NCBI RefSeq assembly: GCF_000003605.2 | Contig: NW_003152254.1 | Coordinates: 106,530 to 131,088, forward strand | Direction: 5' to 3' | DNA: 24,559 bases | Source of the DNA: Saccoglossus kowalevskii | Taxonomy: Eukaryota > Hemichordata > Enteropneusta > Harrimaniidae | Part shown: piece by piece, positions 2,451-24,559 of the stretch | Layout: each line of letters begins with the position of its first letter | Numbering within the stretch: position 1 is the first letter of the stretch | Notes under the pieces: generated by a model | Database searches by the model: none | What the model saw: the letters and a program-made list of their open reading frames with translations, nothing else | Told to the model about the DNA's origin: nothing | Translations under genes and position numbers: made by a program

Positions 2451-2454
2451 TCAA

Positions 2455-2574
2455 TATAAAAGGCCAGTTCTGATTGGCTGTTGCTATTTTGGAGGTGTAG
2501 TCCCGGGTTCAGTGATGACAGTGGGTGTCTGCTAAGTTATTTACGCAAACCTGATATATACACTTACTAACATG
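2455..2574 (+). promoter_or_regulatory. Possible core promoter with TATAAAAGG
   Basis: TATAAAAGG at 2455-2463 is a consensus TATA box, with an inverted CCAAT (ATTGGCT) just downstream. A start would be expected near 2485. An ATG at 2572 opens only 23 codons. No gene on this strand could be followed, so this may be chance or part of a repeat. Confidence 0.25.
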
Positions 2575-2808
2575 AACCAGGAGTTAAATTTGTCGCAGCT
2601 GGGGTTATGTATTGAGCCCTGCATGATCTCTCGATATGCGTGAAATCATTGAATGTAAAAGGTGTGTAAATATGCCTATACGTAACTTATCATTTTTATA
2701 TTGCAATACTGCTCTAAGTATTTATTTTACCGTTTTTTATTAATTCGGTAACCACCTCCTGTATTAACATTTACCTTTGACGGTTCAGTGGTCGGATTAA
2801 AGTGCGGT

Positions 2809-3081
2809 AGTCGTCGCGCTGCGCATGTGCGAGATATATGGGTCTCATGTAAACAAAGATGGCGACTTTGACTGTTGCGCAGATAAACGAGTACGAACTA
2901 ACACGTTTCCAAGCTTTAATTAAGTAATTTTCATGTTATTGGAAGGTATCGATGGAGTCACCGGTGGTAATCAGTGCAAGTCGTGCCCAGGTCAAACCTC
3001 ATACTTGTGATTTCCATTCGAAAAGCGCATTGGATTGTGGGAAAATTAACACAAATGTCGCACATGCGCAGAGCGACGACT
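2809..3081. mobile_element. Short inverted-repeat element (MITE-like), 273 bp
   Basis: The 24-bp ends (2809-2832 and 3058-3081) are inverted copies with one mismatch: AGTCGTCGCGCTGCGCATGT on the left against AGTCGTCGCTCTGCGCATGT on the right arm. No transposase frame lies inside and no clear target duplication was seen. It contains AAACAAAGATGGCGAC, which resembles a YY1-type site. Confidence 0.55.
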
Positions 3082-3992
3082 GTCAAAAATGAAGGGTTGT
3101 AAATCTCGGCCTTAGACAACTTTGAATCTGTGCCTAGCTTATAACTTTAGTTCTGTCTATCATATATCCACCACTGAAAACAAGTTTTACTGCTAGGTTA
3201 GTGAATTTTATTTCAATATTAAAACAAAGATTCGGTAGTACATTCTGACCTGTCACTCTTTAGCATCTGTGTACCATCAGAACGTGCACGCAGATGACCA
3301 TAAACACCAGTGTTGAGATTTCACCTTAGCCTCAGGTACACTTTTGAAAAACACAACACATGACACATGAACAAGTAAAAACAAATTTGGAAATAAGAAC
3401 ATATCAACCAAGATTAAAAGTTAAAAATAAACGCATTTTAAAACTAAACGGCAAACCTCTACCCCAACTGCAAAATGCTTACATGCACTGTCTTCGTTGA
3501 TCACCCCTACAACGTAATCAAATAGCCCATGTCTTAAGAAAAGTCACTTCTGAACAAATTAAGAAAATTCGTTTATGTCTTTTGAGTTGTTTTGCAATGG
3601 TGAAAAATCGTTAGTAGAATCAAGACGTCTACTAAAATCTAATCGACTAGTCTTTGTATCCATTACAAACTTACATTACATTTATAAAATGTTCTTAGAT
3701 ATTTTCTTGTCATTACCATTGGATGACATTAATTATTTGAACTGTTTTACTAACAGAATGTACAACTGTTGCTGTTCCCTTTAAAAAGTGATAATAAATT
3801 TACAACCTCAAGGTTATTCTTGGCTACTCTAACAGTAACTTATACTTTTTCAAGTAAAAAAACTAACAAACAAATATTCTATGTACTTTGCTATGTTTAT
3901 ATAACAATAACACATGTACAGTTCTGACAGCCGAAGAAACACTATCATTAGAAAAAGTAAACACACCAGTATTCACTTTGAACAAAACATAA
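3082..3992. other. Gene-free stretch 3' of the adaptor gene
   Basis: It probably includes the 3' UTR of the minus-strand gene at its right side. No poly(A) signal of canonical form was found. Nothing else is recognised. Confidence 0.4.
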
Positions 3993-4183
3993 TTAGATCT
4001 GTATCAACTCTAAATTGGTTTTCAATTGTCGGAGAGCCTCTTTCTTCTTCCGGATTTTGTCTTCCTGTGAAGCATCGCTGCTCGTGATTTGCGTCATTTC
4101 GATATTGAATTCTTTCATCAGTGCAAAATAAAGTGCTTGATCTCTAATGGTTGCCCTGGATAGACCAATAGGCACAGGGATAT
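3993..4183 (-). CDS. Terminal exon: helical C-terminus
   Basis: Acceptor TGTGTTTCAG leads into phase 1, with 62 further codons and a TAA at 3993-3995. It reads IPVPIGLSRATIRDQALYFA, then MKEFNIEMTQI, and ends in a charged helix, KIRKKKEALRQLKTNLEL. I do not recognise a domain. No canonical AATAAA appears on this strand in the next 400 nt; a TATAAA variant lies at 3896-3901. The mature 3' end is therefore unplaced. Confidence 0.8.
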
Positions 4184-7100
4184 CTGAAACACAAATACAA
4201 CACTTAATATTATTAGCCAATGTTTCATCATTTATTAATCATATCTAGACTTGATTTGATGAATATTTAAATAGCATAATTTTAAATCAATTTGAAACAG
4301 TATATTTTTTCTTTCTGATATTTAATGTCATCTTATGAGAGCGATAATTCGGAATATCAAATGATTCCATAAAAGAATCGAACATGATTTGAAATTTGGG
4401 AGAGGTGAATGACCAGTGACAATTCCATGAATTGCGCTGGAGACATCGACACCACTGTACATTACACAGCACTGCAATCTAAAACAATGATACCCTAGTT
4501 TTGTCTCCGAATACAATACAATACAATACAACATAATTTGATTTGCCAAGGCTACTAAATTGACATTGACCGGATATTCTATTGATTCAGCTCTTGAGCT
4601 AACTGATAACAGTTCAAAACGTGCATAGAATGGCAATCGCGTCTGTGTCACGGGGATTAAAAATAAAATTAAGCAGAAATTGTCATATTCATAGACGGCA
4701 CACACCTGAATTCAGCCAAGCAGTTTATCAGTCTTTGAAGTAAAACTAGAATTCTCCATCAACTAACACAATCGTGTGATCCTAACAATATTAACCTGGA
4801 TATTCACTCGCCCCTCACTGTGAATTAAAGATGTTATTCTATGCCTGGGCAAATGGCTATGTCAATAATTTATTAACTAATTGTCAACAATATCAACATG
4901 TGTATAAGACCAATTAATATTTTTCTATATTAGTGTGGTTTTATACAAGTTGTTTAGTTTAATGATTCTTTCTGGTGACAATACACAGTATGATATTTTG
5001 CCAAGCATGAATCCACAAGAGTGATTGTACTTACCAGTGAATGGGTGTTTATCTTTTCGAATTTTAGTTCGTCCTGTAGGTATAATAACATTTTGCAGAG
5101 AAATGAGACATTGGTTCATCAGAAATCAATCTCAGTTATTTAAATTTAAATCAATTATCAAGTTAATTATGTGTCACAGCTTGTGACGGTAAAGCGTTGC
5201 TGTCACCACACAGCCCCGTAAACGAACAATTTATTCACACGCGTCATTCCGTCGAATGGGACCCACACGGCGCGGTACGATGACTATAGTGCTTAAATCT
5301 TAGCCAGGTGTTCTAGAAAGTATTTGCTATCCAATAAATATGTAACGCAAATGTGGATAATATACCTGCGTGATTATGTTTGGATATATAACAGCGAAAT
5401 TCGTCATGATTGCAGGGGAAACGATGTGGAAGATTGCCTATATGGCACTGATCGATATTGTAATCACCAAATTATTTACTTCTTTACAGATTATCACCAA
5501 ATATAATCGCTTGTTTGTTGAGCTGGTTGAAACGAGTGAAGCCATGAGCTAGTTCATCCACGAACCGGAGTCGAGTGTATAATACAGCCCCGGGAATAAA
5601 GCCTAGTGTCAAATAAATCTAAGTGTCGTTAGGACGCTTACAAATCATATGCTAATTTTCGGTAACCAGACATGACAACTAAGCGCGTCGGTGAACATGT
5701 ATTTTGCAGTTTAAGTATTACCTTTATTTTTATACGAGTTTAAACTCTCTGTCAAATTATTTCGAATTAGTCTAAGTCCCCTATTCGAGTAGAAGTTGTT
5801 ATTTGATATGGATTTTTTTTTCTCCACGTACAGTTCGAACGTACATAAAATGGTGACGTTTAAGGCGAACCATGTGACGTTTACCGTAATATTTCACACT
5901 ACACGACACAGTCAAGTGTAATAAGCGCAAACACATCCACGTGTTATCGGTACATATCCTCTTCACAAAATTACTGATTTCTATTGTGCCACAATGCATA
6001 GCAATCTATATATCAAATGAATGCTTGGAGCATTAGTTTAGTATTTTCGCAAAAACAGCTACAAACAAAAACGACAAAATAGCGGATAATTATAACGTAC
6101 AGTCATATTTCATGATCTATTTCGCATGACATGACAGGCAACCATTTACAGTGAAAATTCAGTCGTTTTACCAAAAATTAGAGCAAACCTATTTCAGTAA
6201 GAATAATAATTTGTAAGACACTTGTTTTCTACTCGGAATTAAAACCATCACAATAACCAGAGTGAATAGTATAATATTGCGTTTAAGTCTGGTTGGTTAT
6301 ATAATGTATTGTACCTAAAGTGAATAGACAACATGACAAAATCGTTCATTTAGTTTAACAGTAATTTCATTTAATTTCATTTAATTTAATTACGTACCTT
6401 TTTCTTTAAATGTTTTCACCTTCTCAATAAGATCTTCCCTGCCGGCTCCTTTCAGAAGCTTATATAGAAATCTGAAGTTGTTTTCAGATATAAGACCCTC
6501 ATCTGACAGGGTGAACAAGAATACTGCTGCATCAGGAAAGTATTTCCTTAAACACTCCAGATCTGGTCGTTTCCGTACCGCCAGGCGCTTCATCCTCTCA
6601 AGAGATTCTGTGGTAATCACCATGATAAAACTTGAGACTTAAATTTATCATCAACCATAAAGCTAATACTCGTATATCGAATCTCAAAAACAATAAACAC
6701 AGTTCATCAAATATTCGTCAAACGGTTTTGCCAGGATGAAAAGCTCGGAAATATTTTGGGCCAAAATAAATGGAACAAGCATGGCCGGAATAAATTTTAA
6801 ATCAAATTTGGTGTTAAGTGTTGCCCATTATACAGTTGTCGGGGATTGTTCATGTCGTTGCTAGTCAATTACTAACACTGATTTAGTTATTTAGATATCT
6901 TCTAAATAGACATGGGTTTGAACCAAGAAAAAATGGTATTTTGGATCTTTAGTGGCCAGCAATTTCGGACACCCCAAGGGCTAGGTATATGTACAGTAAC
7001 ATTAAAATGAATATAAATTGCACCTTACATGCAGACATACTTGCAAACATACGTGCGCGCGCATAAAAACAAAAAAATACTATACCCAACAAATCGACAA

Positions 7101-10100
7101 AAACACTCACCCATACGCCCATAGTTAGTGTGGCTGCGTTGAGCCTACCTACGCAATTCAGCGTTTTTCAAGAAGGCAAATCATGGTGTTAACTTGCTGA
7201 GAACTGATCGGAAATGCTAATTTGGAGGTGAGTTTAGCCATTAGTATAAACAAATGGTAGATTTCATAGGTAATTACGATTGTAGAACACAATTTATTCG
7301 AGTAAATTACGTAAATGTAATAACATGTAAAAAATAAAGACACACTTTGAAGGCGGCGTTACCGTCCTGCCAGCCACCCGTCCTGCCAGCCAGCGTTCAT
7401 GCCGTGCCAGGATGCGTCTGTGCCATGCAAACAGATGCGGGGCAATTAGTTTACAGCATTATTTAATTGTATGATATCATCAAATGCAGCTTGAATGCTA
7501 ATCACCCACCTCATTTATTTGTAATTTGGGGAAAAAAATAAAGGTAATTACAGATATCCACTTGAGTTTTGTTTAAGAAGTCAAAAACATGTTTTAAATT
7601 ATTTGTCGTCACCACAAACATGGCACGGGTAACAGAGAATTTAGTACAACGATTCCGTGTATTGTCCAACTACTTGCCAGTCTGTAAACATTTCATTGTA
7701 TTTGTCTCTCAAAATCCAGGCTTGTACCCTGCCATCGGGTAGAGATGATTTTTATGTCGTACTGTCACGGTGCAATACAATACTGAGATCAAATATTAAA
7801 AAAGTATATGAAACTTGAGTAAATTTGTTCCAAGATGGTGTATGAAATGAAAACATGTATAGAGAATAACTTTGTATCTAATGCTATAGCGAGCAATTCA
7901 GCAGTTTGGACGTATGGTTGTGATTCTGCTCGTCTTCGACTCCTACATTTATTGGTTATAAATAAATCACATGTTAATAATATTTATTTGGGTTTGATTT
8001 TAGAAGTAATTGGCCAATATAGTTATTGAATGCGTGAATGTGATAATCATGGGCAAAACATTTTTAACGTAATAGAAGCCGTGTGTTTGCCTTTTTAATG
8101 TATCTTGTTCATCCTGAGCCTGCACAAAAATAGGAGTTGACATGAAACATTTTATTTGGCAAAGAACCAGGCATAAAAAATATTGTACATGTTGACAGGG
8201 ATAATAACTTTTCAGGTTTGGACTATCCTATAGTCAATGACCAAACGTAAATTGAGACGCGACTCCAGACGAGATCAAACGACCGTTAACTATTCATATG
8301 CAATCGCTTTTGAAAAAGTGTTGTCAAATATGAATCAACTAAATTTGAAGTTTAGGCAACGAATGAAGGTACGGATATTTAGTAAAAATACATTCTTAGT
8401 AAACTAATAATGAGCAATGCAAAAAAATAGTCATATTAATGTTCTGATATATAGGCATTTGTCGTTGTGACATTTTTGGTATATGTGCTACTAATTTCAC
8501 AAATACAAATTTTAGCAATCATTTGAATTTTTCATGTGAAAAATTGCAAAAAACGCTTATAAACCTTTTTTTATAAGTCCCGATCACAGGTATCAGACAT
8601 TTGGGTTTTAAATCAGTTTTTGGTTGGTCACGTACGTGGCTTGCTAGCCATTTTGAATTTATTCTAAACCATTTATTATCATGTATATTGATATACACTT
8701 GTTAAGAACGATTGGTGAATAAAATGTGTGAAACTCACCATAAGAAAGTGCCATACCCAGTTGTTCAATAAACACGTCGATGTCATCATCATCACCTAAT
8801 TAAATATACAAACAATTGTCATTCTAATCATAAGTTATATAAATAAAATAACATCTTACCTCATTCATTATGTACCAAATATCTCATGTTTAATACAAAT
8901 TACATAAATAATTATTAAAAGCATTACATTCGTTTATTATTTAAAGAAAACAACAGTTCCACGTCGTACAGTAATGTGTTATCGCCAAACATCGTGAGAT
9001 TATTTTGACTGATTCATGTAAGTGGTTTACAAGTATTGTGAATTGTGAATAATTTGAACAGTGGCAGCTAAAGCAAAATTGAGTTGCACCAATACCATGA
9101 CCCAAACATGCACATGTCATTTTCACTTGGGAATTTATGAATAATATGTCCCAATATTAATGGCCCCAGGAATAAACAAGAACGTACGTAAACTGTTTAT
9201 GTCATGTGTTCATGAAATAGTGATACTACATACAACTGATGTGATGTCTGGCACTCATAGATTGTAATGTTATAACTGACTGCGAGATAAATGTGTGAGA
9301 TATAAAAATATATACATCATCGCAATGTAATACAGTTCTTGAACAAGTGAAGGAATTCCAATTTGATATATCATTCTGAAACATAGCTTAGAAAGACAAT
9401 TGTTCAAGTTTTGTACAGATAAGTCTTAATGAAGTGTATAATGTTTTTTTTTACAACTTGGATTCGTGCTACATTGTTGCCATTCCGGGATGTAAACTCG
9501 TTCTTACAATTAAATAAATACAACATTAGTATATTAGGCCCATTTTATATGATATTTCCATTGTGTACATGCGACGCAAAACTTAATATATTGCCAAATA
9601 TTTTGATTTCAATTATTTCTATGGAATAGCAAATTTAGTATTTTTTGTCAAATTTGTAATTCATTATTAGTATCTGTGTGTTTACATTTCCGCGAATTAA
9701 CATTATAGCATTTTACGTCTGGCCAAATAAATACGTGGAATCATTAATTACTAAGGACCTGGCGTAGAATTGGGAATTACTCCAGATAAACAAATGTCCA
9801 ATTCGGGAACAGAATAATAGTATATTTGGTTATTGATGAAATAGTAGGACGCCACCAGACGGTCTGACTTAGCAAGTGCTTTGTGTTTCTCTCATGAAGT
9901 TGACGCTGATTGTGCACAAAGGAAGCCGCTCATCCCGCCATTGGATGGGGGCACATCGTGTACGTGGTGTTTACAAAGGATGTGGAGATGATCCGTGGTA
10001 CATCGTGGCCAATAATAAAATGATTGGTTGTCCAACTGTGGGAGTGTCTTTTATTTCTGTGCTAATTATGCAACATCAAAGTCCCGCCATTTATTTTTCG

Positions 10101-10860
10101 TGGTTGTTCGATCATAATCGTCCGCACCCGTATCGGGAGTTTGGTTTACTATGTTGGTCGCTCGACGCCATATTTACCGTTTACCGCCATAAGTTCGGCC
10201 ATTTAAAATCATATTCTGGACAAGATTCTTATCAATTAAATAGTCTGCTTCCATTGCTGCTTCAAATCATTCAGAAACTAGTAGCGCAAAAATCGCGCAA
10301 ATTCATTTTACCACAACTTTACAACGATTTTCACACATACACCAGTTAATTCCGTTATCCAATGGTTGAAGCAATTTCACAACGACCAGACACGCCTCAA
10401 AACAGATGACGAGATTTGGCAGGATCGGCCAATGCGCATGCGTATAAAACAGCTGGTACTAATATCCAGATTTTATAATTTCCTAATAACTTATTTTGCG
10501 CTCGTACAATGCAAAATACATATTTAATTAGATTGTTTGGCCATCAAGTGCCATCCTATGGCGCCCAATTCATATATCACCAATACCATAGTACAGAGTT
10601 ATGTCAACAGCGGGTCAAAAATAAGACTTATATACTAAATTTGTATTTAATTAATTGTAAGGATAAGCTTACATCGTGAATTGGCCACGATGTACCATGG
10701 ATCAACTTGGCGCATGAAGATGCTCGACTAGGTGGTAATCTGCAATAACAAATATATGTTTTCTATTCTCACTTACTATTGCTGTCACTTTCAGAATGTA
10801 AAACATCACGACTTGTACTTGGAGTTACAGATTCACTCATCGAGAAGTGTCCTTGGAAAA

Positions 10861-10939
<79 letters not shown>

Positions 10940-13900
10940 ANNNNNNNNNNNNNNNNNNNNNNNNNNNNNNNNNNNNNNNNNNNNNNNNNNNNNNNNNNNN
11001 NNNNNNNNNNNNNNNNNNNNNNNNNNNNNNNNNNNNNNNNNNNNNNNNNNNNNNNNNNNNNNNNNNNNNNNNNNNNNNNNNNNNNNNNNNNNNNNNNNNN
11101 NNNNNNNNNNNNNNNNNNNNNNNNNNNNNNNNNNNNNNNNNNNNNNNNNNNNNNNNNNNNNCAGACTGATGCCATTTGGCTGGATGTTATTTTGAATCGA
11201 TTTTGGACATAAATACTATTTGTATGCAGGTATCACTGACTCTCGGCTCGCCATGTATTCTTCGATTTTAGTGGGTAAAGGATATTTTGTATGAAATCTT
11301 CCACAAGTTGTACACATTCTATCAATAGATAGGCCACTATAGCACTCATCCAATCATCTCCATCAATAGAACCAGAGGATAGTCTAATTGCATTGTAGTC
11401 TGGCAATCTTGCTAGACATTCGGCTACAAAATCGTCACCTAAAGGATCTTCAAAGTTGTTATCAGGATAAGCAAATCACTAAAAATAAACAGGGTTGAAT
11501 CTACAACCACCAAAATGATGGCTAAAACTATGTGCTGTCACCCCCCCCAAAAAAAAACAAAAAAAAAATCATTACAAAAAAGTAATCAGATAAAACGGAA
11601 AGAAAACGAAAAACTAACAGTTGCGTTTCGCAACGGTATTTTATTTCCGTCGCGCGTTATAGCATTCAATTTATTAAAAAAAAAGTGTTCGCATGTGATG
11701 TCAATAACCCTGGATGTCAATGTTGGTGAAAATGTTTACCCCATATAAGGGAAAAATCGAATGGACGCTAGTTCTGTTGTTGTTCCTACTGTTGTATACA
11801 TATTTGTAAACAGATCGTGAAGCATCATACAATTCGTAACTTCATCTCAACTCAATGCCTCGCAAAGTGTAATTGGTATGACGATAACCCTCTGGGAGAA
11901 CATCCTCTCTATAGCAACAATATACTAACCTTTTTTTGGCATCTTTTGCTTCACCAGTGAGACAGAGCTTTTAGCTTTAGGTTTTGTACCTGTAATCATG
12001 ATGAAAAAATATTGACTAATGTATATAAACAAATATTACTCAATAGCACCAATAAGATCAAAACTACATATGACAATTTGCAAGTCGCCTAGTGTGGAAT
12101 TTTAACTGAAGAACGCCATTTCACCAGCCAATCGACTCTGCTGGCAACGGAGCTTAATGGGATACAGGGTAACACTAGCCATGCGGCTACCAAATGTACT
12201 AAGCATTTAATCTTTCATGTGGCATAGTAACGACATGGTATTGGTTGCAAAAAGCAGAAATTAATTATTTAAATGTCAAGTTTGTATATTAACAACATTA
12301 CACGAAGTAGGTACGATGGATTAATGAAGTCCATATATTTGACACACAAATTATCAATTACTTTGTACATTCGTGGGCTATCCTTGCCTGTAAACGAGAG
12401 CCACGAAAGCTTGAATGCTTAGTACATTTGGGATATTTTTTTCTCCATTGTATCCCAGTTTGCTTCACTGATACTATCTGCTGGTTGGAGCGATATTTAA
12501 TCGAACACTAAGCGATTTGCAATTGATACACTTCATTCATCTGACACTATTCATGTTTTCATTATCATCACTCAACCATTATCCGTTCTATTTTTCAATC
12601 AGATCTAGTAACATCGGTAAAATACTCTTTGGACATTTAATTAATTCGTATTGACTAGGCATGGAGAAATGCTAAACATTTTATTTTAGATATTTTGTAG
12701 GGTACAAATGAATGTATATTTGAGCCTTGGTATCTTGAATACCCTTGCATGAATAAAACAATACTATCCGACGAATACAAACAAGTTCAAATATTCATTT
12801 AGTCTGATAAATATCCCCAATGCAAAAGGTGTATAAATGAACTTATTGACTACTTAGCTTCAAGTCCTAATCTTGGTGGTCATTCCGATTTGAAAGAACA
12901 AAGTTCAGACTACTTATTTGAACAACGTATCATTAGAATTCCAAAGAGTCAGTTGCATAACATTAAACAACGCCTGTGTCAACAAAGGTTTCAGTCACCC
13001 CCATCTTCAAAACATAAAATTTACCTTTTCTGGTGTCAGAGCTACTTTGATCTGAAAATTCACCATATTCCTTATATTCTTCATCTTCATTATCTTCTAT
13101 ATTAAATACACAAAAGTTCATATTAAATTGTATCTAATCAAAATGCATTATTTTTTCAACTTAAATGTCGCATACGACTTATTTACCACTTCCGCGTCAC
13201 TGAGAATTTTCTAGAACCGTACTGGTTCTGGGTGGAATATTCTAGATTTTTTTAGAAACTGGTTAAATAGGTAATATAACACTGTAGGAGGCACTAGAAG
13301 GTAACGGAACATTCTAGAAATTTGTAGTAAGTGCCAGACTCATTATGTATGCTGATGTAATGGTATATTTATAGACAGTGGAGGTATATATAGGGTTGTT
13401 CAGCACTGAGTTCAGATCGGAGATCTCGTTGAATTGTATTGGAGTTTAAGTATCTAGTTATTGGAGTAGTGGAGTTTTACCGCGTTATTGTACTTGATGT
13501 TTGCAGAGTATAATAATACCAGTACCAGTTGAAACCTCATCTGTTGGCTCCGTGTTCGTATTTTATCATTTTGTTACTGTTGCCATTTTGGTATTTGAAC
13601 CATCACACCTGTAGTATACCAATTACGGTAATATTACGTTGCGTGTGACATTAAAGTTATTAAACTATGTACCAATTTTATCAATACACATTTGTACAAA
13701 CATTTTGACAACCCTGTTTTCAAGTGAAGAAAATTACTATAGTCTAGTCAACTCCAGTTATTGCATATTTCATAAATTTGAGCCACATGTGTAAATACAG
13801 TATATACAAAACACAGTGTCTACAAGTACACTTATGCACAGTTAACACACTGCCAAGTTTGGTATAACGCATGAAAGAAAAACCGATAAATTATTGGAAA

Positions 13901-16900
13901 ACAATCGCAGGTATTGATTTTAATTCTAGATTCTGGAGAACGAATTTGAAATTATATTCATTGATTTCAGGAATGTATTGCGTGAATGAGAACAACAACA
14001 TTGTAGTACACTTGTCAATAACGAAAAGATTAGCACACATAAGTTTAGTGGCACAGTGGATGAACTTCCAATGTTATTGCACATCAATCTCGAGTCGATA
14101 TCAGACATTTTAAAACAGAGAATGAAATATAACAGCCTTATGGTATACTAAGTCCTTTGCCTGAAGTAATATACTGTGGTAGAAAATACACTCACTCACC
14201 ACTTGATGTTTCCTCTTTTTCAGCGGTGTCCATATCTACACCGAGAAAATAGTCAGGTAATACAGTAAGTTAATTTATCATACATAGATGCATATGTACA
14301 GATACATACACACACTCACATAAATCGTATAGCACATCACCACACAATAAGTTGCCAGTTTGAAAAAATCTGGTCAGATCAATTTTGACAATATCAATTA
14401 TAAATTCTAGCATAAATAAACGACTACAGCAATTGCAAGACAATTTTTGCTCACCACCAAGTGTTTCCTCTTTTGCCTTAATGTCTTTACCTACATAAAA
14501 AAAATACTTCTTGTTGAGTGCTGTATAAACAAAGCACTCTCAAGACTAGTTTTACTACTTTAAAAAAAAATGCCAAAAAGTTTACTCACCGCTTATTTTT
14601 CCTTGTATTTCATCAGTGCCTTTACCTAAATGTAGAAATTAGAATCCAAGATTTATCTAATGTAACCAACACAAATTATACTAGATATACGCAATCGCCG
14701 CATGACGTCCAGAATATTTACCTGAAATGGTTAGAAAATTGCAAGAAATCGTTTACTCAATGTGTAACATTTCCTTTTTTTCGGTCGTCAGGTACGAATT
14801 GTATTGGTTAAATCGGAGGGTTTGTCATCTGCGCATGCGACGATAACGCATGCTAAAATAGCGAAGGCTCATGAGTAGACGCTTGTTTGTAAATAACGAC
14901 ACGCTATTGCCGTTTGCCGCGCGTGACTCCCCGCTTTAATTTACATATATGCTGACATTTTTGTTTGTTATCCACATTAACCGTATTGCACATCACCACA
15001 CAATAAGTTGCCAGTTTGAAAAGGTTTGAACAGACCAATTTTGACAATATCAATTATTAATTTCAAAACATAAAATTTACCTTTACTGGTGTCATAGCTA
15101 CTTTGATCTGATAATTCACCATACTCCTTATATTCTCCATCTTCGTTATCATCTATATTAAATACACACAAGTTCACATTAAATTGTATCTAATCACAAT
15201 GCCTATCACAATATTTTTTAACTTAAAGTTATTTTATCAATACACATTTGTACAAACATTTTGACAACCCTGTTTTCAAGAGAAGAAAAATAACTATAGT
15301 CTAGTCAACTCCAGTTATTGCATATTTGATATATTTGAGCCACATGTGTAAATACAGTATATACAAAACACAGTGTCTACAAGCACACTGATGCACAGTT
15401 AACACACTGCCAAGTTTGGTATAACGCATGAAAGGAAAACCGATAAATTATTGGAAAACAATCGCAGGTATTGATTTTAATGCTAGATTCTGGAGAACGA
15501 ATTTGAAATTATATTCATTGATTTCAATAATGTATTGCGTGAATGAGAACAACAACATTGTAGTACACTTGTCAATAACGAAAAGATTAGCAGACATAAG
15601 TTTAGTGGTACAGTGGATAAACTTCCAATGTTATTGCAAATCAATCTCGAGTCGATAACAGACATTTTAAAATAGAGCATGACTTGTTTTCATCAAGTGT
15701 TTCCTCTTTTGCCTTAATGCCTTAATGACTAGTTTTACTACTTTAAAAAAATGGTTTACTCACCGCTTATTTTCCCTTGTGTTTCATCAGTGCCTTTACC
15801 TAAATGTAGAAAATAGAATCTAAGATTTATCTAATGTAACTGAACACAAATTATACTAGATATATGCAATAGTGGCATGACGTCCAGCATATATACCTGA
15901 AATGGTTAGATTATTGCATGAAATCGTTTACTCACCGTGTAAAATTTCCTTTTTTTCGGCTGTGTCTTTACCTAATCATGAAGACAGAGAGTAGTCAGGT
16001 ACGAATTTTATGGTTAAAGCGGAGGGGTCGTCACCTACGCATGCGCGGAAATTGAATCAACGATTCGATTAATCGACGACAACAACGCATGCTAGAACGC
16101 AAAGACTCATAGGTAGACGCTTGTTTATAAACAATGATACGCTATGGCCGTTTGCCGCATGCGCAGGGGCTGACTCCCCCGCTTTAATTCACATATATGC
16201 TGATCCTTTTGTTTGTTATCAACAGCCTATCTCTGCACGTTTAATTTCAATATTTACATCATTTGGTCAAATTTATACTGATAATATGAGGTTATTACGA
16301 AGATACCTCAAAGTATGCACGAAGACAATACAGCTGGAGTATCGACGTGCGACGTACTGTCTGAGTGTATACTTTGAGGTATTCTCGTAATAACCTTATT
16401 ATTATACATCTTTTCCTTCCAAGGATACATAATGGGAATGCCGAAATCCAAAATGATTAGAACAGAATCATCGAACTTCTTTCTGTGGGTCCATGTTTGT
16501 TTTTTATTATAAGAGAACGCTTAAGCGCGTAATGATTCCATATTTCGAATTTCCTAATATGGCAAGATGAAAATACCCTAAAAATACCACTGTAATGGCG
16601 TTACGGTGACAGATGTATAATAATAGTAATTATGGAATAATGATAAATCCCAAATAATGATAAATCCCAATCTCACTGACAGTGTTTTCTTGTGTTCAGC
16701 AGTGGATTTACATAAACAGAAGGAATACACATTATAATATATAAATTGTAATATATAAACAGTATGAAAGTCAAATGTGCATATTGTTAGTTGTAGTATA
16801 GATAGGGCTGATTTAAGAAAATTTAAGAAAATTCATTTTTATTATGACCGATTCCGTGTATCAATTATAGGCCAAGTTCAACTTCATACTCACCGACTAC

Positions 16901-19900
16901 TGGAAAATTGGAAATTGTTGCTATTAATTTCAGCACTTGTATCTGTGTTTTCGGATCAAAATCGTCATATTCGTGTAGAAGGCGGTTGATGGTATTTCTT
17001 ATTAGATACACGTTCGTAGTCAACCGATTAATCAATTCGTTCTTCATTTCAATCTTTTCTTGAAGTTCTTCTATTTTCCTGTCTGCTTCAGTTGGCATTT
17101 CACGAGGTTTGGACTACGACGCAAGAAGAGTAGCTTATGAGAACATTTACAGTTTATAATGTACACCACATTCATTATAAAACGAGCCATGCATGGCACA
17201 GTCCCCGTTAGTTATCAAATTTAAGATGTATAGTTTTGTTTATAGTAATATAGCTGATGATTTTTTTAAATAATAAATGGCATTCAGTCATTTCGTATCT
17301 GATCGTCGACCATTTTGATTCGGATCGTCAAAACAATACAACTGCATATCTATGACATGATGTATAATGAATATATAAAATTCGAACATAATCAGTCAAA
17401 GCACGTTAGAGATATGGCTATAGAATCGGATTCATTCATTCAAAAAACAATCAATTAATTATGTATCAACACAACAATAAGGAGGATGTATTAAATTTAT
17501 AATTCTCCTCTTTAATAGTTAGTTACAGAACATATAAGCATCTTTATATTTAGGAGTTGCTATATTTGAATCAATTACTATGAATATTTGCTCGAGGATT
17601 TTTTTTCAATATTTTTCACGGAATTATTGAATTTGTGATTTTCCGACACCAATATTCAACGTCACAGAAAACAAATACCGATACTTGCGTTTAATTGTAT
17701 ATATGTATCCGTTGAACGTCTGTCCTGCACCTCCAAGTCTAAACATTCATACATTTGTCCTTTCCGGATGCGCGTTCTGGTATCAGCATGACAAACCCGT
17801 TCAGCCTCCAAACCTACCAAAGTAATCAGAGGACAGCGACATTGTTAATACATACATATTTTGTTCAAATATATATGTCAACAAATTGGTGATAAGGTAG
17901 CGGGTATAATGTATGATACAGCAAAGCATACATTTTACATAAACCTATATTTATTTTGAAGAGAATGAATCTGCTTATTTTGAACATGTTTTAAAAGTTA
18001 TTTGATGGATTATGCATAATTTGGGGATAATAATGAATCTGTATCTAAAAGTACAACCAATTTATTACAATTTTATAAATGTTACATATGTACTGGGGCA
18101 TTTATAGTTATAATCTTGCTCAATAAATTTGGTATTGATTGCAAACATATGCAGATGATTTATCTTGGCAGTTTAATCACAACTTGAATTACCACGGTGC
18201 ATTTCAACTTTGTTTATCTTGTTTAATATTATGGTTGTGAATTTTTGAATAATAAAAATTCCAGAGTCATTCTCTTCACAAACAAACAAGATTACCAAGA
18301 GCCATGGAATTACTGTGCAAAATAGTCACGGTTATGCAACTGAGCTGACTCCATAGTACAGCATACTAGTAACAATGTCAAAACCGATGTGATTGCCATT
18401 GTTAAAGCTGCAACATGTGTTTGTTTTCTTCAGAAATTGAGCAACCAATAAAACTATCGTTTCTATAGTGATTAGCAAATTAAAAACAAATCATCGACCT
18501 TTGAAGCATCGAAAACCAAAGCAAATCAAACTATTTAAATATTTTTTGACAATGACATTTACCCTCTGCATGCAGAGTTTGGTCGGGATGGAGGTGTTAT
18601 TCGTTATTTGATATCGATACTAACATACACATGAACATATATCTCAAGAAATATTCAAAATTTGCATTGTATCAATATTGATTTTGAAAAAAACAAATCG
18701 TAAATTTTGTTCTCTGTGATTCATCATTACTTTGTGGCAAACATATCAATTAAAATTGTGCGTCTGCAAAAATTTGCATATGAATGAATTAAAATGCCAG
18801 ATTAACCAATCATTGGAAAAAAATACTAGTGAAAATAACTTCTATATCTTACAATTGCCAGAACGAGGGCATGGCGTTCTGTCATATCATCAATTGATAA
18901 CAATTTAACTTTGGGAATATACAGGCAGAAATATTATATGTAGACAAAGCACTCTTTACCTTCAAAAAATGTCTTTGCCCACTTAAGATGCCTGAGATCC
19001 ATAGTCACTGATATACGTATATTTTGATCAACATCCTCTTTCGCCAGTATTGCTTTCATCTCATCTGTTATCAATAGTTGTGTCATCTTCTCTTCCAATT
19101 CGCCGAATACTAGTGCATGTGTCAGTGATATTACGCCACCCACTGAGAAACATCTGACAATCAGAATTATGCTGCCCTCTTCAATTTTTTCTATCTGTTG
19201 CTGAAGCTCGAATATTACTTGCCGAATCTGTGATAGCTTTTTGTGGTTACCACCTTTCATGATGATTTTCATTTGATTCTCGAAAGCTTTTACAAGTAGG
19301 TCGTGGTATTTCGCCAACATATTTTTTTTAATATTCATGTCAAGCCTAAAATCTAATAAAATACATAGGCATGCATGTTACCATAATTAAATATTGCCAG
19401 TTAACTGTAATGTAGTGAGTTAGTGAGTTAGTGAGTTAGTGAGTGAGTGAGTGAGTGAGAGACAGCTAGCTATGCACCTAGTAACCTAGTAATAATTGTT
19501 GATGTTTTGGATATCTTATGTGTTCAACTCATAAAACACTCAGGTTTTGTATACATAAACAATTGCCCCTTGTGCTCAATAGTTGCAGTCTAATTTAAAG
19601 TTTGTTTCTAAGTTTGTGGCCGATGGTGTCCAACCTATTATAATCCAACTTTCCGAATAACAAATATTTCACAAAACAAGTCCGATAATCACTTACAGCA
19701 ACTTCTACCTTTCTGAGATTTAGTGTTCGATGATATCGTCGATATTCGTCTCTGCTTTTCTGCAAAAAAAAAACAAAAAAAACGAAAGGCGTCATTGTAA
19801 ATTATTTGGAAATGACATTCAACCCGGTATATTTATGAACGAGCGCACCTTCATCTATAATACAGAAAGTGTACACAAAGTGATTGTGTCTGTGATATGT

Positions 19901-21164
19901 TTTAAATTGTATGTTTGTATTAGGGACCATATGATTGGGGTCACATTTGCGAAATTTCAATCTTTGGTATTTTACATTCAAAATGGAACATAATTTGCCT
20001 TGGATGAACTGCATATACTTGTTCGCCCCGAGAATATTGTTTTGATTTTTGGTATGAATTTATTTTTAACCAAAGACACCACTAATGTACATTAATTTGC
20101 TTCACTTTGCTTTTAGTTAATATTTCGGATGCATGATAGCATGATACATATAAACTGTGCTTACTGGAATTGGGTAAATGTGATTTACCGTTTTTGTTGC
20201 GTTCTCCCACGAAACGTTCAACCTCCTCAACAAGATCTTGTCGTTTAGCCAGTTGCAACATACTGATAAGATTATCCATATTATTTGTAGATATTTTTCC
20301 ATTTTCAGCAAGTGCTGTTAACAATCCGGCTGCTGAATTGCATTTTTCAATTTTATTTTGTGATAATAATGGAACTGACAATCTTTTCATCTGATCTAGC
20401 TCATCTGTAAGTAAAGTAAAAAAAGAAGCAATATTAGTGAATACTAACTTTTATTCCGGTATACGCACGTCCATCATTTTTCCGTTAAGTAGAAGATAAG
20501 AAAAAAGGTGATATTCGGTGATTTATTTGTTTATATTCACTTAGTATTCACAAAGTATTATAATAATTGTTCAAGATTTATTAAATAGACAGTGTAGAGT
20601 CTGGGTTTGTTTCAGCTTTTAGTTGATTCGTTACTGTTTTACAATACCCGATCTATAGAAGTGTTTGTTTACTAGGAGTCGTAAATCATTTAATTAATTG
20701 AACATTTTGTGTCAAGTGTGACTTTCATTATGGTTTCTAATTCACAGTGAATTATATCGTTACATTATTACATTACTAACGAACGTTTGTATTTTTTGTA
20801 ACAGTAAATTGAATAATGTTTTGGGGAATTAGTTACATTATCTGACTGTGTCAGATCGTAATATATTTTATGTTCTGTTTTATATTATCTAGTTTGATTT
20901 GATTTGATATGCATGTGATATACCGGCGACAATGATTTAATATAATTTAATATCAATGTGGTCAGGTCAACTGGGCTACAAATAACCAACAATAATATTA
21001 CTTAACACATGGAAGAAGTGTTGAATGAAAGTGTTGTCCCATGACACAATGAGTTGTTATATAGTGTATGAATATCAAAACAAAGTCTTACCACCCCTTA
21101 TATTCCCTCCAATATCTTCAATAAATTCAGCAAGTGGATCTAACTCCGTTGAAGATGAATCCAT
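3993..21164 (-). CDS. Split gene: DED - TRADD-N-like - coiled coil - microexon linker - DED adaptor (whole span)
   Basis: This is the union of the exons listed separately. Joining them gives one open frame of about 608 codons (629 with the optional exon 19697-19759). Every internal exon starts and ends in phase 1 with AG/GT borders, which is strong internal support for a single gene. Residues about 8-90 form a death effector domain (DED), about 150-227 a TRADD-N-like domain, about 228-265 a coiled coil, about 291-443 a charged linker, about 446-530 a second DED, and 546-608 a helical tail. No signal peptide or membrane segment is visible, so a cytosolic adaptor is likely. By family knowledge, DEDs stack on other DEDs (FADD, caspase-8 type) and TRADD-N binds TRAF-type partners; a role in death or NF-kB-type signalling is inferred. 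It could still be two genes meeting in the linker, but the unbroken phase pattern argues against that. Confidence 0.75.
4184..5034 (-). other. Intron between the 39-nt exon and the terminal exon
   Basis: AT-rich intron of 851 nt with a short ATACA run at 4508-4530. Nothing else is recognised. Confidence 0.6.
5035..5073 (-). CDS. 39-nt basic exon after DED2
   Basis: Acceptor ACCTACAG and donor GTAAGT bound 13 codons in phase 1-1, reading RTKIRKDKHPFT after a split Gly codon. It links DED2 to the C-terminal exon. Confidence 0.7.
5074..6397 (-). other. Intron after DED2
   Basis: Intron of 1324 nt. A short TTTAATTTCA repeat lies at 6364-6388 next to the donor. No exon with phase 1 borders was found inside. 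Confidence 0.6.
6398..6607 (-). CDS. Helices 2-6 of DED2
   Basis: This 210-nt exon is entered after ACCACAG in phase 1 and leaves at AAAAG with donor GTACGT in phase 1. It starts SLERMKRLAVRKRPDLECL, continues through AAVFLFTLSDEGLISENNF and LYKLLKGAG, and carries RxDL as R-E-D-L at about residues 519-522. MKRL stands at the same place as in DED1 and the upstream intron falls at the same alignment point, so the two DEDs share an origin. An alternative acceptor, with the exon starting at 6637, keeps the phase and would add 10 residues. The ATG at 6623 is in frame but is probably not used as a start. Confidence 0.85.
6608..8738 (-). other. Intron splitting DED2
   Basis: Intron of 2131 nt. It holds a small direct repeat of CGTCCTGCCAGCCA near 7364-7393 and the palindrome CACGTACGTG at 8629-8638. 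No further exon is supported. Confidence 0.6.
8739..8795 (-). CDS. Helix 1 exon of DED2
   Basis: Acceptor TTAATTAG and donor GTGAGT bound 19 codons in phase 1-1, reading DDDDIDVFIEQLGMALSY. It matches the role and spacing of exon 1 (FIEQLGMAL beside FIEDIGGNI) and joins in phase to the exon at 6607. Confidence 0.8.
9990..10703. mobile_element. 714-bp element with 24-bp inverted ends
   Basis: GATCCGTGGTACATCGTGGC at 9990 is repeated inverted at the right end (10680-10703) with one mismatch over 24 bp. Next to the right end ACATCGTG and CACGATGT also form an 8-bp stem (10671-10693). The interior is richer in GC than its surroundings and holds an open frame (9876-10349, starting outside) with no recognisable domain. 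A non-autonomous DNA transposon in the intron before DED2 is the simplest reading. No target duplication was identified. Confidence 0.45.
10777..10851 (-). CDS. 75-nt Ser/Thr-rich linker exon
   Basis: Acceptor TTTTCCAAG and donor GTAAGT bound 25 codons in phase 1-1, reading HFSMSESVTPSTSRDVLHSE and then SDSN. The T-rich tract before the acceptor is supplied by the AAAT microsatellite that runs into the assembly gap. The internal ATG (MSES) could start a shorter product, but the splice phases fit both neighbours. Confidence 0.65.
10858..10940. repeat. AAAT microsatellite ending in an assembly gap
   Basis: About 20 uninterrupted AAAT (AAATA-type tetranucleotide) units run directly into the unknown bases at 10941. 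The true array length is therefore unknown. On the minus strand it forms a T-rich tract just before the acceptor of the exon at 10777-10851. Confidence 0.95.
10941..11161. other. Assembly gap (221 N)
   Basis: Unknown bases within the intron between the exons at 11930 and 10777. An exon could be hidden here. Confidence 0.98.
11233..11475 (-). other. Orphan 80-codon open frame beside the gap
   Basis: Open from 11475 to a TGA at 11233-11235, this frame reads in part ECLARLPDYNAIRLSSGSID and GDDWMSAIVAYLLIE. It looks more protein-like than other intronic frames. An AG at 11439-11440 (CCTTTAG then GTGAC) would allow phase 1 entry, so it could act as an alternative last exon of the adaptor gene. 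A second minus-strand frame ending at 11216-11218 overlaps it and also looks protein-like (MCTTCGRFHTKYPLPTKIEE), which points instead to a decayed insertion of unknown origin. I recognise no family. Confidence 0.35.
11476..11929. other. Intronic, low-complexity A-rich stretch
   Basis: Runs of C and A (11540-11585) and general AT-rich sequence. No exon is supported. Confidence 0.5.
11930..11989 (-). CDS. 60-nt basic linker exon
   Basis: Acceptor ATTACAG and donor GTTAGT bound 20 codons in phase 1-1, reading TKPKAKSSVSLVKQKMPKK. It is lysine-rich, in contrast with the acidic exons before it, and could serve as a nuclear or membrane-surface targeting patch. No second copy was seen. Confidence 0.7.
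11990..13024 (-). other. Intron between the acidic and basic linker exons
   Basis: Intron of 1035 nt. No repeat or exon was recognised. Confidence 0.55.
13025..13096 (-). CDS. 72-nt acidic linker exon, copy 2
   Basis: Acceptor AATATAG and donor GTAAAT, 24 codons, phase 1-1, reading EDNEDEEYKEYGEFSDQSS and then SDTRK. It is the duplicate of 15081-15152. The shared core EYKEYGE-x-SDQSS could be a protein-binding or phosphorylation motif, which is inference only. Confidence 0.8.
13166..13650 (+). mobile_element. Solo-LTR-like insertion, 485 bp
   Basis: The element starts TGTCGCA and ends GTGACA (TG...CA) and is flanked by the 5-bp direct repeat TTAAA (13161-13165 and 13651-13655). The duplicated block at about 15225 has the same flanks with a single TTAAA and no insert, a clean empty site. 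Inside are two full heat-shock-element triplets (13204-13216 and 13307-13319), one partial (13235-13247), and a TATATATA box (13385-13392). No internal retroelement region is present, so it is a fossil single LTR, or just possibly a promoter-bearing DNA element. It is younger than the block duplication. The family is unknown. Confidence 0.6.
13204..13319 (+). promoter_or_regulatory. Cluster of heat-shock-element motifs
   Basis: GAATTTTCTAGAA (13204-13216) and GAACATTCTAGAA (13307-13319) both match GAAnnTTCnnGAA exactly. GAATATTCTAGAT (13235-13247) matches two and a half units. They lie 70-180 bp upstream of the TATA box at 13385, a normal spacing for a heat-inducible promoter. Confidence 0.6.
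14200..14235 (-). CDS. 36-nt linker microexon (MDTAEKEETSS)
   Basis: Acceptor GGTGTAG and donor GTGAGT, 12 codons, phase 1-1, entered through a split Asp codon. DTAEK is shared with the exon at 15936 and KEET with the exon at 14455. No counterpart is left in the upstream block. Confidence 0.76.
14455..14490 (-). CDS. 36-nt linker microexon (KDIKAKEETLG)
   Basis: Acceptor TATGTAG and donor GTGAGC, 12 codons, phase 1-1. Its core is shared with the fossil at 15689-15730. GGAAACA near its end is also present in the exon at 14200, showing that the two microexons are themselves related. Confidence 0.76.
14590..14625 (-). CDS. 36-nt linker microexon (KGTDEIQGKIS)
   Basis: Acceptor ACATTTAG and donor GTGAGT, 12 codons, phase 1-1. 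It is the duplicate of 15764-15799 with two base differences. Confidence 0.78.
14757..14785 (-). pseudogene. Fossil of the KDTAEKKEILH microexon
   Basis: This is the counterpart of the live exon 15936-15971 in the other duplicated block. The donor GTGAG has become TTGAG, and about 30 bases holding the first codons and the acceptor are deleted. It cannot be spliced as an exon. Confidence 0.65.
15081..15152 (-). CDS. 72-nt acidic linker exon, copy 1
   Basis: Acceptor AATATAG and donor GTAAAT bound 24 codons in phase 1-1, reading DDNEDGEYKEYGELSDQSS and then YDTSK. It is strongly acidic and rich in Ser and Tyr, as expected of a disordered, phosphorylatable linker. Its paralogue is 13025-13096, with about seven base differences, most of which change the amino acid. 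Confidence 0.8.
15689..15730 (-). pseudogene. Fossil of the KDIKAKEETLG microexon
   Basis: The core (15691-15719) is almost identical to the live exon at 14455-14490. The donor GTGAG is gone, and the acceptor side carries a short repeat of ATTAAGGC in place of the AG-GTAAAGAC border. The matching region for the exon at 14200 is also missing next to it, so a deletion probably removed part of this block. Confidence 0.65.
15764..15799 (-). CDS. 36-nt linker microexon (KGTDETQGKIS)
   Basis: Acceptor ACATTTAG and donor GTGAGT bound 12 codons in phase 1-1. It differs from its paralogue at 14590-14625 at two bases, one silent (GGG/GGA) and one changing Thr to Ile. The flanking intron sequence is duplicated with it. 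Confidence 0.78.
15936..15971 (-). CDS. 36-nt linker microexon (KDTAEKKEILH)
   Basis: Acceptor GATTAG and donor GTGAGT bound a 12-codon, phase 1-1 exon. After the split Gly codon it reads KDTAEKKEILH. It belongs to the same family as the exons at 14200, 14455, 14590 and 15764. Its counterpart in the second duplicated block (14757-14785) is broken. Confidence 0.75.
16281..16405. repeat. 125-bp foldback hairpin
   Basis: The arm 16281-16320 (GGTTATTACGAAGATACCTC at its centre) pairs with 16365-16405 over about 40 bp with few mismatches. Inside, AGACAATAC and GTACTGTCT extend the stem. TA bases flank the arms. It may be a small TA-inserting MITE or, on either strand, a precursor-like hairpin RNA. 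It lies in the intron after the coiled-coil exon. Confidence 0.65.
16408..16676 (-). other. Intronic stretch without features
   Basis: Part of the intron between 15971 and 16894. It contains a short direct repeat, AATGATAAATCCCA, at about 16638-16669. Nothing else is seen. Confidence 0.5.
16677..16707 (-). pseudogene. Decayed microexon copy
   Basis: This stretch aligns with the 36-nt linker exons: TTTATGTA before it, GAAAACACT inside it and GTGAGA after it. The acceptor dinucleotide is AA instead of AG and the body is about 31 nt, so it would not keep the frame. It is read here as a dead member of the microexon family, the first one after the coiled-coil exon in transcript order. Confidence 0.5.
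16894..17082 (-). CDS. Coiled-coil exon
   Basis: This 189-nt exon is entered after GAAGCAG in phase 1 and ends at GTCG with donor GTGAGT in phase 1. It begins RKIEELQEKIEMKNELINRL, a clear heptad-like helix, and continues with LIRNTINRLLHEYDDFD and a second hydrophobic helix, VLKLIATISNF. It directly follows the TRADD-N-like domain and may oligomerise the protein. An ATG 16 nt before the acceptor opens the same frame (17098), so an internal promoter could also start here, but the phase match to the preceding exon favours splicing. Confidence 0.75.
17083..18959 (-). other. Intron between the TRADD-N-like and coiled-coil exons
   Basis: Intron of 1877 nt, AT-rich, with a slightly GC-richer stretch at 17700-17840. 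No exon or repeat was recognised. Confidence 0.6.
18960..19352 (-). CDS. Exon encoding a helical segment and a TRADD-N-like domain
   Basis: This is the longest exon (393 nt). It is entered after TTATTAG in phase 1 and ends at GAAG with donor GTAAAG, again in phase 1. The first 50 or so codons form an amphipathic helix region (LSQIRQVIFELQQQIEKIEE). The rest begins EEGSIILIVRC (strand), then LTHALVFGELEEKM (helix), then LLITDEMK, and ends NIRISVTMDLRHLKWAK (strand and helix). This order, with a Gly-Ser-hydrophobic strand, a short helix ending in a Gly-Glu-Leu type turn and a final I-x-V-x-M strand, resembles the ferredoxin/RRM-like N-terminal domain of TRADD and its many invertebrate relatives. 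The assignment is by motif memory only. A weaker acceptor 7 nt further in (exon start 19345) would give a different phase and does not fit. Confidence 0.72.
19412..19460. repeat. GTGA / TTAGTGAG microsatellite
   Basis: Three to four TTAGTGAG units pass into pure GTGA units. It lies in the intron before the TRADD-N-like exon. Confidence 0.9.
19697..19759 (-). CDS. Probable optional 63-nt linker exon
   Basis: The borders are good: a long T tract then TGCAG before it, and GCT then GTAAGT after it. Entered in phase 1 it is open and leaves in phase 1, giving a basic Ser/Thr/Lys linker that includes KQRRISTISSNTKSQK. At 21 codons it can be skipped without shifting the frame, because exon 2 also splices in phase to the exon at 19352. 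A different frame of the same bases reads KSRDEYRRYHRTLNLRK and looks more protein-like, but it needs a phase 0 entry that no good donor in exon 2 provides. Confidence is moderate for the exon and lower for its frame. Confidence 0.5.
20189..20404 (-). CDS. Exon 2: helices 2-6 of DED1
   Basis: This 216-nt exon enters after TTACAG in phase 1 and leaves at GTAAAT in phase 1. Joined to exon 1 it completes a death effector domain: an acidic helix 2 (DELDQMKRL), a hydrophobic core (AAGLLTALAENGKIS), and the RxDL motif as R-Q-D-L at about residues 79-82, followed by VEEVERF. An acidic residue in helix 2 together with RxDL is the charge triad typical of DEDs. A second donor (CCA, then GTAAGC) lies 24 nt further on, with the exon ending at 20165. 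It keeps the same phase, so an 8-codon longer form is possible. Confidence 0.85.
20405..21091 (-). other. Intron splitting DED1
   Basis: Intron of 687 nt, at the same alignment point as the 2131-nt intron in DED2. It contains a 7-bp stem, ATCTGAC/GTCAGAT, near 20840-20856. Nothing else is seen. Confidence 0.6.
21092..21164 (-). CDS. First coding exon: start codon and helix 1 of DED1
   Basis: The ATG at 21164 has a strong animal start context (A at -3, G at +4). It opens 24 codons reading MDSSSTELDPLAEFIEDIGG and then NIRG. The exon ends at a GTAAGA donor in phase 1. The stretch PLAEFIEDIGGNI fits helix 1 of a death effector domain. A likely acceptor, TTTTCACACAG, lies 16 nt before the ATG (its last G is 21181), so the exon probably begins at 21180 with a short 5' UTR and a further untranslated exon upstream. 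The second DED begins with a very similar exon at 8739-8795. Confidence 0.8.
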
Positions 21165-22335: not shown

Positions 22336-23534
22336 ATATTTGGGTATGTCTAGCTGCCAGAGTGATACGTAGGCGACATGTAATGGTGCGCATACAACTA
22401 GTACTATACACACAACGATGTATAACAATGTCAATTGTATTAAAACGGAGTCAATGATTTTCATGGTTCAGTCAAGGTAGATAGTAAATATTCGTTTGTA
22501 TTAGATGAAATATACAACCACAGTTTAATCTTTAATCACCATATATATACATTTACATCGGACTTTTGCTTTTAATATCCAGATGCTCTATCTAGTATTC
22601 TCAGAACTGTAGTACATACGTATATTTTGGAATTATGATGGGTAGACTAGGGGTGGTTGAACTATTGTTCTACCTCAGCCGAATAAACTGCATGTACACG
22701 TGTACAATTCGGGTTTGACTTGAGCAAATTCTATCTCTGTGGTTTGAAGCAGGCCAATTGATACTGCGATAAAATAGATTGAAACAAATGAAGGAGTATG
22801 AGTAATGTATCGCTTATCTAATGAAACTTCTGGAAATCGTGATCGTTAGTGTGTGAAAGATTTTTGTTTTGACACCCCTCAAAATGTATGGGATTCTCGG
22901 ACGATCGATTTGGGCAGCCCGAACGCAAACAATCTATTGAAGTCACGTTGAAATTAGCAATTAATAGTTCTTTTTTTTAAATTTCACTGTAATTTTATTA
23001 GTATAAATAGGGTCGACGAGGTTTTATTTTGGCCATCTACTCGACCTCGTGGCATCCTAGTATTATAATCGTACAACGTATAACTAAACAACGAAATGTA
23101 AGTGATATCCTTGCCCATGGTATCAAGAGTATTAGCAAGCTGTATGAATAAGTGATATCACATGATCAACTCCCATACTCTAATGGTAATTTATACTAAT
23201 TTATAAATACATAAGTGAAAGCGTATTTGTTGTTTTTTCACCCGATCCTGTTCGATCCATACCTTTGAAACGAGGTCATGTCTTATGGTGTCATGCTATG
23301 GGAAGGCATGACACCAATCATATGCTACCATACCACTCTATGTCAATCGATTGTATTGCGAAGGGGATGACACCACATAATAGACACTGGTCGGCGCGAT
23401 GTAATCCACTAACCCTTTGATCTGTTGGGTCAATGTACGGTTTGTGGGTGGGATTCAGCCATGTACAGTTAATTGCAATTATATATACTTTGATAATCAA
23501 ACGTTTTTGCGTTTCTTTGGTGAATTGATAAGCG
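22336..23534. other. Intergenic stretch with small hairpins
   Basis: It contains the 14-bp perfect palindrome TGTACACGTGTACA (22693-22706, with an E-box core), a TATAAATA motif at 23002-23009, and a perfect 11-bp stem, TGGTGTCATGC/GCATGACACCA, with a 9-nt loop (23286-23316). No gene is supported. Confidence 0.5.
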
Positions 23535-24240: not shown

Positions 24241-24559
24241 TTTTCATCGTAAATACATGTTTTTGCATTCTCGAATCATAGTATTATGATTATTCGTGTA
24301 GTGTGAATTCCTCTGAATGCAATGTTGTAAGATGTCCACCCCTACATTAACAATGGTTTCTTCTTTGTCACGTGATTGACTTCTCGCTGCGAGTTTTTTA
24401 GTTGACAAAGCATTGAGGTGAGTAACCAGTGTTACTGTTATCATTGTTAGCTAAATTACTCGTGTGAATAGTGCCCGTCTCAAACACCACTTCATGTATT
24501 GACGAAGTAAAATACTTCAAGGTACTTCCATCATGACCAACCGTTCACCCATTATAACT
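24241..24559. other. End of window, no feature recognised
   Basis: AT-rich sequence after the tandem array. The short frame here has no recognisable content. Confidence 0.4.

Follow-up and report, generated by a model that had tools for sequence, protein, structure and literature searches.

The question raised by this locus is whether the 24,559-nt stretch of Saccoglossus kowalevskii DNA analyzed here (hereafter the window) encodes one long adaptor with a DED at each end, as a preliminary description proposed, or more than one gene. From its sequence and from comparison with the rest of the genome, we conclude that the window probably holds two neighboring minus-strand DEDD-like genes, each built as a DED followed by a TRADD-N-like domain and each belonging to a family that is expanded in this genome. 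Gene A begins at 21164 and probably extends to 11233; gene B runs from 10840 to 3993 and carries a DED and, of the TRADD-N domain, no more than the first half.

The preliminary description came without an exon list, and the 18-exon chain discussed below is a reconstruction made here on the minus strand, on which all exons lie, with splice sites scored by a matrix built from 13 paralogue exons. Fourteen internal exons of this reconstruction have an open frame flanked at either end by phase-1 GT/AG borders; phase 1 is also found at the first donor and the last acceptor, which brings to 16 of 18 the exons that fit a phase-1 chain. Under the same filters, 28 candidate phase-1 exons are found on the minus strand vs. 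7 on the plus strand (nested alternatives counted). The proposal that all borders of the 18 exons are in phase 1 thus holds for these 16 rebuilt exons, and it is not confirmed at the borders between exons 4 and 5 and between exons 14 and 15.

Exon 1 (21092 to 21164), which resembles paralogue first exons, encodes the initial Met and DED helix 1 (MDSSSTELDPLAEFIEDIGGNIRG) and ends in a phase-1 donor at 21092 (score 5.5). Helices 2 to 6 follow in exon 2 (20189 to 20404; acceptor 13.3, donor 6.4), and the two exons together match the Pfam DED family (PF01335) with 47.6 bits, over the curated cut-off of 35.9. A short phase 1-1 linker exon 3 (19697 to 19759; acceptor 13.3, donor 4.0) leads to exon 4 (18960 to 19352; acceptor 4.4, donor 6.6), which contains a full TRADD-N-like domain and matches the profile of its paralogues with an hhalign probability of 99.0 (E 4.5e-18). 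By exon order, therefore, the DED of gene A lies N-terminal to its TRADD-N, and the predicted chain is DEDD/DEDD2-like in this arrangement. A genome search with exon 4 recovered eight places, itself included, and an NCBIfam search with exons 1 to 4 returned one row, far below its cut-off.

To which type the TRADD-N-like domain belongs is best seen from the family. In Pfam, exon 4 scores 13.5 bits for TRADD-like_N (PF20694; cut-off 23.7), which is the second of four families listed, none of them over its own cut-off; and taken alone against human DEDD, exon 4 reaches an hhalign probability of only 4.8%, so that any DEDD-type membership runs through the family. The human DEDD sequence used here scores 50.4 bits for DED and 52.9 bits for TRADD-like_N in Pfam. 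Two TRADD-N family profiles, A1 and A2, match the C-terminal domain of this sequence at 91.4% and 93.95%, respectively, levels reached by 0 of 150 shuffles in either case, and the paralogue profile matches it at 93.6% without the window rows and at 94% with gene A (0 of 150 shuffles). These profile matches, above the shuffled controls, indicate a DEDD-type TRADD-N domain. TRADD as the nearest relative is unsupported by sequence: its score is equaled by 20 of 150 shuffles with A1 and by 1 of 150 with A2, where the probability is 1.1%. The TRADD-N-like domain of the preliminary description is thereby borne out, as one of DEDD type and not clearly near TRADD, and so are its two DED exons, which Pfam places at 20189 to 20404 and 6398 to 6607, the second under the cut-off.

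Structure-based searches were also performed. AlphaFold models of the gene A TRADD-N exon and of its paralogue on contig C1348 are of low confidence (pLDDT 72 and 78, pTM 0.47 and 0.46). With the first model, Foldseek had 0 matches at E <= 0.001, and no TRADD chain is among the structure matches listed for the low-confidence models. Neither model brought an informative match or confirmed the RRM/ferredoxin-like fold of TRADD-N, and the result points neither to sameness with that fold nor to a difference from it. PDB sequences compared with profile A1 gave 13 rows with a best E of 0.17, none of them a death-signalling protein.

The genome searched for paralogues comprises 572 Mb in 4830 contigs and contains 67 places that match the DED at E <= 0.001. 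Using the Pfam family and three TRADD-N exons as queries, we found 18 distinct TRADD-N-like places at E <= 0.1, a count that includes weak ones, fragments, and one gene that looks NCOA6-like. Eleven of the 18, both window units included, have a DED on the same strand within 3.5 kb upstream, and a twelfth (C1613, at 87.7 kb) has an upstream DED fragment detected by a local profile at 48 bits. A genome search with Pfam TRADD-like_N at E <= 0.1 does not have the window among its matches; on seven paralogue exons the same family gave one score of 12.8 bits (cut-off 23.7) and no match at E <= 1 for the other six.

The surroundings of several paralogues contain further domains. On C4 (L026) a DED–TRADD-N gene, and on C4178 (L021) DED–TRADD-N genes, are followed by coiled-coil-like and NHL-propeller exons, with an NHL score of 72.5 bits on C4 and a propeller match in two pieces on C4178. 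A TPR exon (37.7 bits) comes close after the paralogue TRADD-N on C1348, and on C4347 (L029; 7966 to 9270) a GT4-conflict glycosyltransferase exon (56 bits) precedes a TRADD-N-like exon. Contig C9 (L020) shows a candidate DED–TRADD-N–DED arrangement at 2405 to 5320, where the TRADD-N donor scores 12.1 and is followed by a helix-1-like exon that lacks a Met (acceptor 10.4) and then by a DED exon; more DED-like ORFs lie at 7243, 9160, and 12265 (the last on joined L020 and L032), with 27.6, 86.9, and 17.7 bits, the second of these being itself part of the training set. A third DED match on the window's own contig (C4225:222520-222747) lies ~91 kb past the upper end of the window. Elsewhere in the assembly, the mitochondrial contig C4830 (L033) carries COX1 and ND1 on opposite strands, with AGA, a stop in the vertebrate mitochondrial code, used twice as a sense codon in ND1, and with AAA at lysine-type and ATA at isoleucine-type sites. 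The AGA codons speak against the vertebrate code and for a non-vertebrate host, and the AAA usage speaks against the echinoderm code.

Downstream of its TRADD-N exon, gene A is harder to define. Exon 5 (16894 to 17113) is coiled-coil-like by eye, has no second genomic copy at E <= 0.1, and has an uncertain border to exon 4. The top acceptor in this stretch, at 17113 (score 2.4), is in phase 0 for the coiled-coil-like frame, and a join from exon 4 to it runs into a stop four codons on; acceptors in phase 1 that would keep the frame score −2.2 to −7.9, vs. a median of −1.4 for all AG. Next in the reconstruction are five mini exons of 36 nt, namely exon 6 (15936 to 15971; phase 1-1), exon 7 (15764 to 15799; a copy of 14590 to 14625), exon 9 (14590 to 14625), exon 10 (14455 to 14490; weak donor, 2.1), and exon 11 (14200 to 14235), all with modest acceptor scores (1.1 to 4.1), together with two of 72 nt, exon 8 (15081 to 15152; a copy of 13025 to 13096) and exon 12 (13025 to 13096; acceptor 8.9, donor 9.8). 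A basic exon 13 of 60 nt (11930 to 11989; acceptor 7.0, donor 9.0) leads to exon 14 (11233 to 11438), the probable last exon of gene A, whose frame is open up to an in-frame TGA at 11233 to 11235. Searches with exon 14 gave no Pfam match at E <= 1 and no second genomic copy at E <= 0.1.

The linker of gene A is fast-changing, and its region has undergone recent duplications, with copies 85 to 97% alike. Within 13006 to 16224, these duplications (300 nt at 97%, 141 nt at 93%, 117 nt at 90%, and others) have copied mini exons and intron sequence together. Within the two duplicated mini-exon pairs, 9 of 108 bases differ, with codon differences that are replacements in five cases and silent in three; between the intron copies, 14 of 391 bases differ over three stretches, a count that leaves aside a fourth stretch (12 of 117) mixing intron and a degenerate exon copy. 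The duplicated mini exons are no better conserved than the intron copies and show no sign of constraint. An inverted repeat with 46-nt arms (85% complementary) around a 22-nt spacer, possibly a small mobile element, lies nearby at 16286 to 16399.

These features bear on whether gene A ends just past its TRADD-N domain, through splicing from exon 4 to 17113 and the stop four residues on, in which case exon 5, the mini exons, and exon 14 would belong to another transcript or be noncoding. Such an ending, which is compatible with two genes, would use the best acceptor available, has an AATAAA 258 bases beyond the stop reached via 17113, and would agree with the lack of constraint seen in the mini-exon pairs; yet a coiled-coil-like exon stands at the same place, after the TRADD-N exon, in five paralogue genes on four contigs (by eye), and the splice sites of exons 12 and 13 score well. 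We consider this shorter form of gene A rather unlikely and retain the longer one, ending at 11233, as the probable structure.

Between the two halves of the window lies a run of 221 N (10941 to 11161), adjoined by an (AAAT)n array at 10858 to 10940. Immediately beyond it, exon 15 (10777 to 10851; acceptor 3.2, donor 4.7), the probable first coding exon of gene B, contains an ATG at 10838 to 10840 and encodes MSESVTPSTSRDVLHSESDSN (MSES...SDSN), followed by a phase 1-1 exon (8739 to 8795) with an acidic run and DED helix 1, DDDDIDVFIEQLG. In four paralogues (genes 1 and 2 on C4178 and those on C1613 and C4), a single first exon encodes the Met, an acidic stretch rich in serine, and the first helix of the DED; the start of gene B has this same make-up, but one intron splits it. 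Helices 2 to 6 lie in the exon at 6398 to 6607, which with its neighboring exons gives a Pfam DED match of 28.8 bits (E 1.5e-6), below the cut-off of 35.9; its nearest other DEDs are on C408 (40%) and C4178 (37%).

The last exon of gene B (3993 to 4183) encodes the first half of a TRADD-N domain and then TAA. It aligns with the first half of the C4178 TRADD-N exon at 41% over 63 of 63 residues (E 1.2e-12) and with C4 at 38%, and reaches 95.4%, a level attained by 0 of 150 shuffles, against a profile of paralogues from which the window rows were left out. Used as a genome query, the C4178 exon recovers it in turn (E 1.8e-7, with one internal TAA); Pfam TRADD-like_N (PF20694) does not match the half exon at E <= 1. 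Two DED–TRADD-N units are therefore present in the window, and the second of them is truncated. Alignment z values for this exon fall from C4178 (19.8) and C4 (14.7) through C1348 (8.6) and C1613 (3.9) to gene A (−0.5). The second unit is not a close copy of gene A, and its likeness to C4178 and C4 rather than to gene A points to a DED–TRADD-N ancestry of its own. It also follows that the DEDs at both ends of the preliminary description are not confirmed, since the chain finishes in half of a second TRADD-N exon.

Gene B could be a decaying pseudogene rather than the source of a working short protein, a reading likewise compatible with two genes. Its TRADD-N domain stops half-way where the paralogues continue, and its DED scores under the Pfam cut-off; on the other hand, all four of its rebuilt exons have an open frame and phase-1 borders, and their acceptors score 3.2 to 10.4. 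Decay is thus a real possibility, although we think it somewhat the less probable of the two states.

Whether the two units are joined in one transcript turns on the region around the N run. In a single gene of 18 exons, the chain would read DED, TRADD-N, coiled coil, linker, DED, and half TRADD-N, would have arisen by in-frame capture of a downstream DED–TRADD-N gene through phase-1 exons, and could bridge two death-signalling assemblies with its two DEDs. Since all borders would be in phase 1, read-through splicing would keep the frame, and the phase-1 borders of the 16 fitting exons are in line with this; moreover, the exon 15 frame is free of stops upstream of its ATG up to the N run, the ATG itself has T at −3, and the DED–TRADD-N–DED chain on C9, with its Met-less helix-1-like exon, is plausible enough that a fused chain in the window keeps a small chance of its own. 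Against it stand the weak links at 4/5 and 14/15 and the stop in exon 14: a fusing join requires the sole phase-1 donor just ahead of the TGA, which scores 1.3, vs. 5.3 for the weakest of the 13 training donors and a 75th percentile of 1.6 among all GT. Three more donors of the chain score below 5.3 (exon 3 at 4.0, exon 10 at 2.1, and exon 15 at 4.7), and because other exons of the chain score modestly too, we treat the splice scores as weight and not as decisive. The second DED–TRADD-N unit, furthermore, belongs to another subgroup, and its DED is preceded by a start-like exon.

It is this start, with Met, serine-rich and acidic stretches, and helix 1 as in the four paralogue first exons, that makes two tandem genes likelier than one chain. 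Tandem layouts occur elsewhere in the family: C4178 has two start exons in tandem ~11 kb apart, gene 2 there having an in-frame stop seven codons ahead of its Met, and on C1613 three TRADD-N places share a strand. It counts against two genes that within 500 bases past either stop there is no AATAAA or ATTAAA, the nearest being at 582 (gene A) and 781 (gene B), and any promoter or poly(A) site separating the units would be concealed by the N run. On balance, the sequence leans against both DEDs being in one transcript, and the single chain of the preliminary description, which we consider improbable, is not supported, given the half TRADD-N last exon, the separate start-like exon of the second DED, and the two weak splice links. 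Two adjacent genes remain the reading we favor. In the flanks (L030 and L031; 9.9 kb and 9.5 kb), four ORFs of at least 90 aa were read by eye, and Rfam gave 0 matches at the gathering score. A tandem array of ~260-nt units (2.5 to 3 copies, 68 to 94% alike) occupies 23531 to 24276 of the window.

The order DED then TRADD-N has been described before. The vertebrate proteins DEDD and DEDD2 (FLAME-3) share with the window genes an N-terminal DED followed by TRADD-like_N; gene A differs from them by its added coiled-coil-like exon and repeat-rich linker, and gene B lacks half of the second domain. Among the literature matches listed, a single paper, by Kaur et al. (2021; PMC8195603), takes up TRADD-N gene families in its title or opening. 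It treats a DED plus a TRADD-N as the constant core of expanded DEDD2-clade genes and gives such expansions for cnidarians, oysters, brachiopods, echinoderms, hemichordates, and amphioxus; the flanks vary, with GT4 and TPR among them, and the order GT4 before TRADD-N is listed. The Saccoglossus genes share with that account the core, the variable flanks, and the lineage-specific expansion, and NHL (C4), TPR (C1348), and GT4 (C4347) exons are found here near paralogues. Gene A fits it too, with its coiled-coil-like exon and linker in the variable position, although no effector domain was recognized in gene A and gene B is truncated. The paper places TRADD, which carries a C-terminal Death domain, and DEDD2 in one TRADD-N superfamily (PMC8195603), yet TRADD gave no clear sequence match here. 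Most likely, then, the window genes are additions to an already described marine-invertebrate family and not one new two-headed adaptor.

DEDs form homotypic assemblies and recruit partners of the FADD, caspase-8, or FLIP type. We suggest that gene A may encode an adaptor whose DED would contact other DED proteins (of FADD, caspase-8, or FLIP type) homotypically, while its TRADD-N and coiled coil might bind a second partner or cluster it. If the gene B protein is made, it could act as a modifier with a DED alone, joining or capping DED assemblies but giving no TRADD-N output; alternatively, gene B may be a decaying copy.

With this locus, one more invertebrate genome is seen to hold expanded DED–TRADD-N genes. 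It illustrates how such modules may spread, as DED and TRADD-N units surrounded by phase-1 introns and laid out in tandem, an arrangement in which truncation or read-through fusion can occur without a frame shift. The candidate DED–TRADD-N–DED gene on C9 may show the gene-capture step in cleaner form than the window does, and gene B would offer a natural way to ask if a DED that lacks its TRADD-N partner can serve as a modifier.
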